A DNA stretch of 34,646 bases, from contig DYGC01000006.1 of assembly GCA_020724925.1 (NCBI GenBank), positions 1-34,646 of the forward strand, in the 5' to 3' direction. Both the position numbers and the translations under genes were made by a program. Of this stretch, positions 23,322 through 25,177 are shown in pieces. A model generated the notes under the pieces. That model saw only the letters and a list, made by a program, of their open reading frames with translations. It did no database searches and was not told where the DNA came from. Each line of letters begins with the position of its first letter. Positions within the stretch are counted from its first letter, which is position 1. This DNA comes from Candidatus Paceibacter sp. (GTDB taxonomy: Bacteria; Patescibacteriota; Patescibacteriia; DYGC01).

Positions 23322-23843
23322 ATGAGTTTTGTTAAATATTTTTTGGTGATTTTTTTGATGATTTTTGGTGGTTCGTGCCAGTTGATTGCTGATAATCAGC
23401 CGGCAGAAAACAGCGAAGGAGTGGCCATCAAAATTCCTTTGCCAGAAGGTAACTCGTTTACTTATCGGGATTTTTATTTTGTGATGCCTGAGGCTTGGAA
23501 AGTCATCAGTGAAGAGCCGCAAATGGTCTTGGTGGAGACAGCAAGCGAGCCCTATATTATCCGGACAAGCGTTTTGTTTAGTCGGGACGATCATTATTTT
23601 CCATCGGAAAACTCCCTGATTCACACCTCAGTGGATGGTTTGAAAGTTTACAATAGCCTTTGTTATGGCGGTTTGGCTTGTTATGCCGTGGAGAATGACG
23701 GCCAGTTTACCTTGATGACTTGGACTATGCCAAGCAGTACTGAGCCAATTCCCGCCGCCGCCCCGGCCGACTGGCAGCCAAGTGCTAATTTTACAGCTGA
23801 GGACGTGTTGGCGGTGGTGAAAACGATTCGTCTGGCGGAATAA
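23322..23843 (+). CDS. putative lipoprotein
   Basis: N-terminal hydrophobic stretch ending FGGSC (lipobox-like); 173 aa, no recognised family. Confidence 0.65.
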   Translation: MSFVKYFLVIFLMIFGGSCQLIADNQPAENSEGVAIKIPLPEGNSFTYRDFYFVMPEAWKVISEEPQMVLVETASEPYIIRTSVLFSRDDHYFPSENSLIHTSVDGLKVYNSLCYGGLACYAVENDGQFTLMTWTMPSSTEPIPAAAPADWQPSANFTAEDVLAVVKTIRLAE

Positions 23844-23874
23844 CGAGCGTCGGCCGGGGCGGCGGCTCATACCC

Positions 23875-24013
23875 TTGATTTTTAAAAATCAATCAGTTAT
23901 TATTAGGAAGTATTACAATTTATTTTATTAACTCTATTTTTTGCTTAATTTAGACAAAAAATAGAACTTGGACCGGATTAAGCCGGCCACAGGTTAAGTG
24001 CTATTTTTTTTTT
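23875..24013 (+). promoter_or_regulatory. structured leader of rpsA (several hairpins, alternative pairing)
   Basis: TTGATTTTTAAAAATCAA palindrome (23875-23892); TCTATTTTTTG(23933-23943)/CAAAAAATAGA(23955-23965); second CTATTTTTT copy at 24001-24009 directly before the ATG at 24014. Confidence 0.55.
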
Positions 24014-25177
24014 ATGAGTTTTGCAGACTTATTAAAGCAGTATGATTTGAACATCCCGAAGCCGGGTGACTTGGTTAAGGGAACAGTAATCACTGCTTCT
24101 TCCTCTGAAGTCCGTTTGGACATTGAGGGTTTTACCGTCGGTATTATTCGCGGTAAAGAAATGTATCGTGAATCAGAAGAGTATGCCAATTTAAAGCCGG
24201 GCGATGAAGTTGAAGCCACGGTTTTGGAGTTGGAAAATGAAATGGGTATTGTGGAATTATCTTTCCGTTATGCCGGACACAAGAAGGCCTGGAACAAGTT
24301 GCGCCAATTGAAAGACAGCGGCGAAATTATTCCGGTCAAGATTGTGGACGCCAACAAGGGCGGTTTGATGATCAAGGTGGATCATGTGGCCGGTTTCTTA
24401 CCGGTTTCTCAATTGACCCCGGAACATTATCCTCGTGTTCAAGGTGGCGATAAAAATCGTATCTTGGAAAGATTGAAGAGCTATATTGGTCAATATTTTG
24501 AAGCCAAAGTTTTGGATGCTAATGAAGAAGATGAAAAATTAATTGTTTCCGAAAAAATGGCTTGGGAAGAAAAGCAACGCGATGTTATTTCCAATTATCA
24601 AGTGGGTAGCATTGTGGAAGGTGTGGTGACTGCCATCACCGATTTCGGTGCTTTCGTGTCTTTCAATGACAATTTGGAAGGTTTGGTGCACATTTCTGAA
24701 ATCGCTTGGCAAAGAATTGACGATCCGAAGGAATTTTTGAAACCGGGACAAACTATCAAAGCCCAAATCATCAAGATTGAAGGTTCCAAGATTTTCTTAT
24801 CCATGAAGAGCTTGATTGATGATCCGTGGAAACACGTCTTTGAAAAATACAATGTCGGTGACATTGTGGAAGGTAAGGTTTTGAAAGCCAATCCTTTCGG
24901 CTTGTTCGTGGAATTGGATGCGGATATTCATGGTTTGGCACACGTTTCTGAGTTGTCCGAAAAGGCGATGACCGATCCGTTTGAGATCGCTCGTCCGGGC
25001 GACATGGTGAAATTCCGAGTTTTGACTATTGAACCTGATAAGCATCGTTTGGGTTTAAGTATCAAAGCTTTAAAAGCCAAGAAAGTGGAAGCCGCTCCGG
25101 CTGACGCTCCGGCCACTGCCGAAGCCAAAACCGAAGAGGTGAAAACTGAAGAGGTGAAGGAAGAAACAAAGGAATAA
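24014..25177 (+). CDS. rpsA: 30S ribosomal protein S1 (four S1 domains)
   Basis: Repeated S1 motifs such as GSIVEGVVTAITDFGAFVSFNDNLEGLVHISEIAW and GDIVEGKVLKANPFGLFVELDADIHGLAHVSELS. Confidence 0.95.
   Translation: MSFADLLKQYDLNIPKPGDLVKGTVITASSSEVRLDIEGFTVGIIRGKEMYRESEEYANLKPGDEVEATVLELENEMGIVELSFRYAGHKKAWNKLRQLKDSGEIIPVKIVDANKGGLMIKVDHVAGFLPVSQLTPEHYPRVQGGDKNRILERLKSYIGQYFEAKVLDANEEDEKLIVSEKMAWEEKQRDVISNYQVGSIVEGVVTAITDFGAFVSFNDNLEGLVHISEIAWQRIDDPKEFLKPGQTIKAQIIKIEGSKIFLSMKSLIDDPWKHVFEKYNVGDIVEGKVLKANPFGLFVELDADIHGLAHVSELSEKAMTDPFEIARPGDMVKFRVLTIEPDKHRLGLSIKALKAKKVEAAPADAPATAEAKTEEVKTEEVKEETKE

Follow-up and report, generated by a model that had tools for sequence, protein, structure and literature searches.

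A conserved, covarying RNA element upstream of rpsA in one class of Patescibacteria and its candidate role in the control of S1

By computational comparison of rpsA upstream regions, we found an RNA element of about 65 nt that has a covarying structure, is conserved, and occupies a fixed position before rpsA in one class of Patescibacteria, a phylum for whose uncultured members cis-regulatory RNAs are little described. The best reading of this element is an undescribed rpsA leader RNA. For the copy at 23933–24001 of the window, by which we mean the whole 34.6-kb stretch of DNA analyzed here, we lean towards a cis-acting 5′-UTR RNA element of rpsA that controls translation of the gene, most likely through feedback by S1 (Table 1).

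Table 1 Features of the rpsA leader region and adjoining DNA in the window.
Feature	Position	Strand	Basis or remark
Exact 18-bp G+C-rich inverted repeat	arms 23754–23771 and 23849–23866		one arm in the final part of the upstream ORF, the other immediately past its stop codon
Palindrome TTGATTTTTAAAAATCAA	23875–23892		9+9 palindrome
Predicted sigma-70-type promoter TTGATT-17-TATTAT	23875–23903	+	consensus scan; placement as in relatives
P1 5′ arm (UCUAUUUUUUG; TCTATTTTTTG in the DNA)	23933–23943	+	pair probability ~0.99; position conserved, covarying in relatives
P1 3′ arm (CAAAAAAUAGA; CAAAAAATAGA in the DNA), directly abutting P2	23955–23965	+	alignment of relatives, covariance model
P2 5′ strand ACUUG (class consensus rCU(U))	23966–23970	+	invariant C-G, then U.G pair
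Apical part of P2, CCGG-AUUAAG-CCGG	23973–23986	+	sequence, folding
CCGG/CCGG	23973–23976/23983–23986		
P2 3′ strand CAGGU with invariant tail UAA (class consensus (A)GGyUAA)	23990–23997	+	alignment of relatives
Second CTATTTTTT	24001–24009		T-run extends on to 24013
U-run between element and start codon	24004–24013	+	T6 or longer in 12/41 leader spacers vs 4.9 expected
rpsA-like gene	24014–25177	+	387 aa, four S1 domains

Results

The rpsA leader of the window

The gene that starts with the ATG at 24014 encodes an S1-type protein in which four stretches match the S1 domain (PF00575), and an S1 protein is encoded in 361 of the 383 sampled genomes of the class. An earlier note on this DNA had proposed a self-regulatory switch in the leader of this gene, and all the sequences it named are present where it placed them. 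For comparison, the 170-base intergenic region (23844–24013) was dinucleotide-shuffled 1000 times. A perfect 11-bp hairpin such as that between TCTATTTTTTG and CAAAAAATAGA arose in 0.4% of the shuffles and a 9+9 palindrome in 0.2%, both of which are unusual, whereas a repeated 9-mer arose in 23%. Therefore, the upstream hairpin merits attention, and the duplicate CTATTTTTT, although present as described, does not. The rpsA leader also folds better than its shuffles (z −2.9).

The same note had pointed out that no Shine-Dalgarno (SD) sequence precedes the rpsA ATG. This is true, yet equally so for 39 of the 41 window genes examined, with an SD-like sequence in only two; the missing SD is therefore this genome's rule. 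Several 16S genes of the class retain GGATCACCTCC, although the window genes are nearly devoid of SD sequences; the 3′ end of the 16S gene of the window's own genome was looked for and not found in the assembly. Genome G133 (L239, L245) has two 16S copies with differing 3′ ends, one of which has CCATCTCCTTTC in place of CACCTCCTTTC; this possibly reflects a contaminant contig. Separately, the rpsA start codon falls in a predicted 8-bp hairpin (24014–24032) and is the most closed start among 40 window genes. We rejected this hairpin as a general feature: it is the strongest among the window genes, but the starts of relatives are on average 0.46 unpaired.

A P1/P2 element shared by many rpsA leaders of the class

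Relatives were taken from the same Patescibacteria class as the window, all of them from outside its genus, family and order; named relatives are Uhrbacteria, Komeilibacteria, Kerfeldbacteria and Falkowbacteria. The 126 rpsA upstream regions collected, in which a few loci duplicate one genome, revealed a common layout: a hairpin of variable sequence (P1) directly followed by rCU(U), a second hairpin (P2), (A)GGy and UAA, with a short A/U-rich spacer leading to the ATG. Written as a descriptor, this layout matched 49 of the 126 regions, compared with 31 of 1260 shuffles (2.5%) and 9 of 126 reverse complements, so that chance should account for a few of the 49. According to our own tally by family labels, the element is found in at least 18 families of the class, and it is missing from over half of the class as sampled. 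The descriptor matched none of 40 rpsA leaders taken from the phylum's other classes.

Two families display further features. In an Uhrbacteria-like family (f9), the P1/P2 element is absent save for one doubtful descriptor match (L056). Tandem copies of ATTCATAA, spaced 11–13 nt, lie just upstream of rpsA in 12 of the 14 f9 regions (L003, L004, L018, L028, L030, L031, L040, L041, L045, L048, L052, L055; some from the same genome) and in 0 of the 112 others, possibly representing a different rpsA leader signal. Leaders of family f8 (L005, L035, L039, L043, L049, L085, L091) carry a further conserved segment after UAA, in which CCTTAAAT/ATTTAAGG overlaps TCTCC/GGAGA to give two hairpins that cannot form together; a U-rich stretch follows.

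Covariation was assessed in an alignment of 21 leaders from which the window was excluded (A2). Changes on both sides were seen in 13 of 15 pairs, with 85 double-changed cells, where shuffling left 33 and sliding the partners no more than 28. The C-G and U.G pairs at the base of P2, as well as UAA, showed no variation. The leaders in A2 had been chosen partly for pairing. Therefore, we repeated the test with selection on sequence and P1 only, and in leaders picked solely on rCUy...AGGyUAA and P1 the fifth P2 pair was complementary in 36 of 37. A 40-row alignment, fitted to the covariance model and including about four spurious rows, agrees (181 double-changed cells vs 66 shuffled). Judged by these alignments, both helices covary strongly.

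Within the window, folding a shorter stretch yields P1 and P2. When coding sequence is included in the fold, the closing pairs of P2 reach only ~10%, with a competing, window-specific pairing to codons; this contact between the P2 3′ strand and the coding region was rejected as a shared feature, as it is not conserved in relatives (5.5 vs 5.2 bp). Two further candidates were rejected for the invariant tail. One was a leader peptide ending at UAA: an in-frame stop lies just before UAA in L116, and the window has no ATG start for such a peptide. The other was mimicry of 16S rRNA: AGGyUAA does occur in 16S genes within the class, but to meet a given 7-mer in 1.5 kb is no surprise.

Probable membership of the window's copy in the class-wide element

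A covariance model built from A2, and hence without the window (R1), has its best match in the window at 23933–24001 (16.7 bits, E 0.088), a score that is modest because the window's P1 consists almost entirely of A/U; the next-best match (E 0.87) lies inside a gene and is presumably chance. Derived from the whole-window value, E for the 170-base intergenic region would be ~4e-4. A second model that includes the window (R2) scores it at 23.3 bits, as expected from its membership by construction. Across the 383 class genomes, all 14 R1 matches with E < 0.005 lie upstream of rpsA. Leaders outside the R1 training set (G196, G281, G280, G363, G168) were also matched, again before rpsA, and most of the remaining weaker matches fall in coding regions or ahead of unrelated genes and look like chance. 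In 40 leaders outside the class, R1 gave one weak match (11.7 bits, E 0.44).

The window sequence at 23933–23997 follows the layout, with P1 immediately followed by rCU(U)-P2-(A)GGy-UAA, and sits before rpsA and downstream of a sigma-70-type promoter as the class element does. Because of this placement, the contact between the two helices, the tail CAGGUUAA and the distance to the promoter, we consider the window's copy a likely member of the class-wide element. The modest R1 score in 35 kb would also fit a chance A/T look-alike in the window of an otherwise real class leader. This we regard as highly improbable: the exact position before rpsA, the junction of P1 with ACUUG, the tail and the spacing all concur, and the E derived for the intergenic region is low.

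The predicted promoter in the window ends 29 nt upstream of P1, so that transcription probably begins near 23910. A sigma-70-type promoter precedes P1 in 35 of 37 motif-bearing leaders, compared with 24% of shuffles, at a distance that spans 15–92 nt in relatives and is mostly 15–60 nt. A start of transcription downstream of 23965, the circumstance that the earlier note had named as fatal to its proposal, is made unlikely by this arrangement. The palindrome that it had counted among the leader structures is real and rare in shuffles; however, since it overlaps a good promoter placed as in relatives, it is more likely promoter DNA (−35 box and spacer) than part of the RNA.

Proposed alternative pairing and possible termination downstream of P1

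The mechanism originally suggested comprised one anti-arm and two competing arms, in which the AAAAAATAG strand would pair either within P1 or with the U-run at the start codon. The window does allow nine perfect pairs for this alternative, but the second arm is not conserved: over 41 leaders, the P1 3′ arm could form on average 4.80 bp with the spacer before the ATG vs 4.65 bp with shuffled spacers, and in the window itself this pairing was unexceptional (p = 0.2 vs shuffled spacers). The alternative has a predicted probability of ~0.0002 in the window and is 6.5 kcal/mol worse, with P1 at ~0.99, and the chance frequency of the CTATTTTTT repeat in shuffles also speaks against it. We consider such a switch extremely unlikely.

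P2 and the downstream U-run could alternatively form an intrinsic terminator, making the leader a transcription attenuator. U-runs do follow the element in several families, and the additional pair of hairpins in f8 could act in this way. There is very little probability left for attenuation, however, given that the U-run of the window begins ~9 nt after P2, that a consensus scan finds no terminator, and that several families have no U-run.

Discussion

The element probably controls how much S1 is made, and translational feedback by S1 is its likely mode of action. In the mechanism we propose, the leader RNA would fold into P1, coaxially abutting a P2 hairpin with a near-invariant base and tail (rCU(U)...(A)GGy-UAA), followed by an A/U-rich spacer, often with a U-run, and the start codon. 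Free S1 would bind the structured leader and the U-rich spacer, the U-run serving as a putative S1 site, and would thereby exclude the 30S subunit that carries S1. We infer S1 as the ligand, and the link is supported by the identity of the downstream gene, which is rpsA in every confirmed case, by the enrichment of U-runs in the spacer, and by the precedent of E. coli S1 (see below). Of the earlier proposal of an S1-type leader, the structured and conserved RNA with its own predicted promoter stands, but the switch does not; a regulatory leader analogous to that of E. coli is therefore plausible.

More tentatively, S1 may recognize a specific folded junction on its own mRNA (P1/P2, rCU.GGy-UAA) and in this way set its own level and, with it, initiation. 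S1 is usually a reader of unstructured RNA and prefers single strands. If the idea is true, recognition of the junction would set the S1 level, and hence initiation, in bacteria largely without Shine-Dalgarno sequences; as the window genome nearly lacks them, the S1 level could affect its translation at large.

The main rival to S1 feedback is a constitutive role, in which the leader protects the 5′ end or acts as a ribosome standby site or translation enhancer for a highly expressed gene. We rate it as possible but rather doubtful. In many leaders P1 begins ~10–20 nt downstream of the predicted start of transcription, as 5′-stabilizing hairpins do, and a standby structure could matter in a genome whose genes start without SD sequences. 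On the other side, the invariant C-G/U.G base and the UAA tail are more than a stabilizing hairpin needs, and confident genome-wide matches occur only before rpsA.

That the element senses not S1 but a different ligand, for example a small molecule or some other ribosomal protein, is in our view improbable. An invariant specific sequence is unusual for S1 as a single-strand binder, and the C-G and U.G pairs, which lie side by side next to a helix junction, recall the GU/GC motif that S15 recognizes (PMC4684408). However, the gene here is rpsA rather than rpsO, and there is no three-way junction: the GU/GC of rRNA lies about one helical turn from such a junction, whereas the pairs of the present element are located directly at the junction of its helices. 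The absence of an Rfam match likewise argues against a ligand of this kind; in the window and 20 relatives, Rfam 15 yielded no family at the gathering threshold and chance-type matches only. Feedback by S1 is the reading we prefer.

In its general form, the element resembles the ribosomal-protein leaders of Rfam, which are likewise structured 5′ UTRs before a ribosomal-protein gene maintained by compensating changes. In the papers searched, we found nothing on rpsA leaders in Patescibacteria; an earlier mention outside Rfam, for example in a 2017 survey of 224 candidate RNAs, is possible. Leader control of S1 is already known in gamma-proteobacteria. In E. coli, S1 acts on a structured leader without an SD to repress its own mRNA, with free and 30S-bound S1 in competition (PMC10931766). 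The translation initiation region of rpsA in E. coli and other gamma-proteobacteria shares with the element described here a structured leader, the lack of a canonical SD, A/U-rich single strands and the encoded protein, S1 (PMC10931766). It differs in that our element has a two-hairpin core with the invariant rCU/GGy-UAA, and R1 finds no match in the rpsA leader of E. coli K-12 (L252); no homology in fold or sequence was found. That a distant lineage carries a leader of unrelated structure on the same gene suggests that leader control of rpsA has been invented repeatedly.
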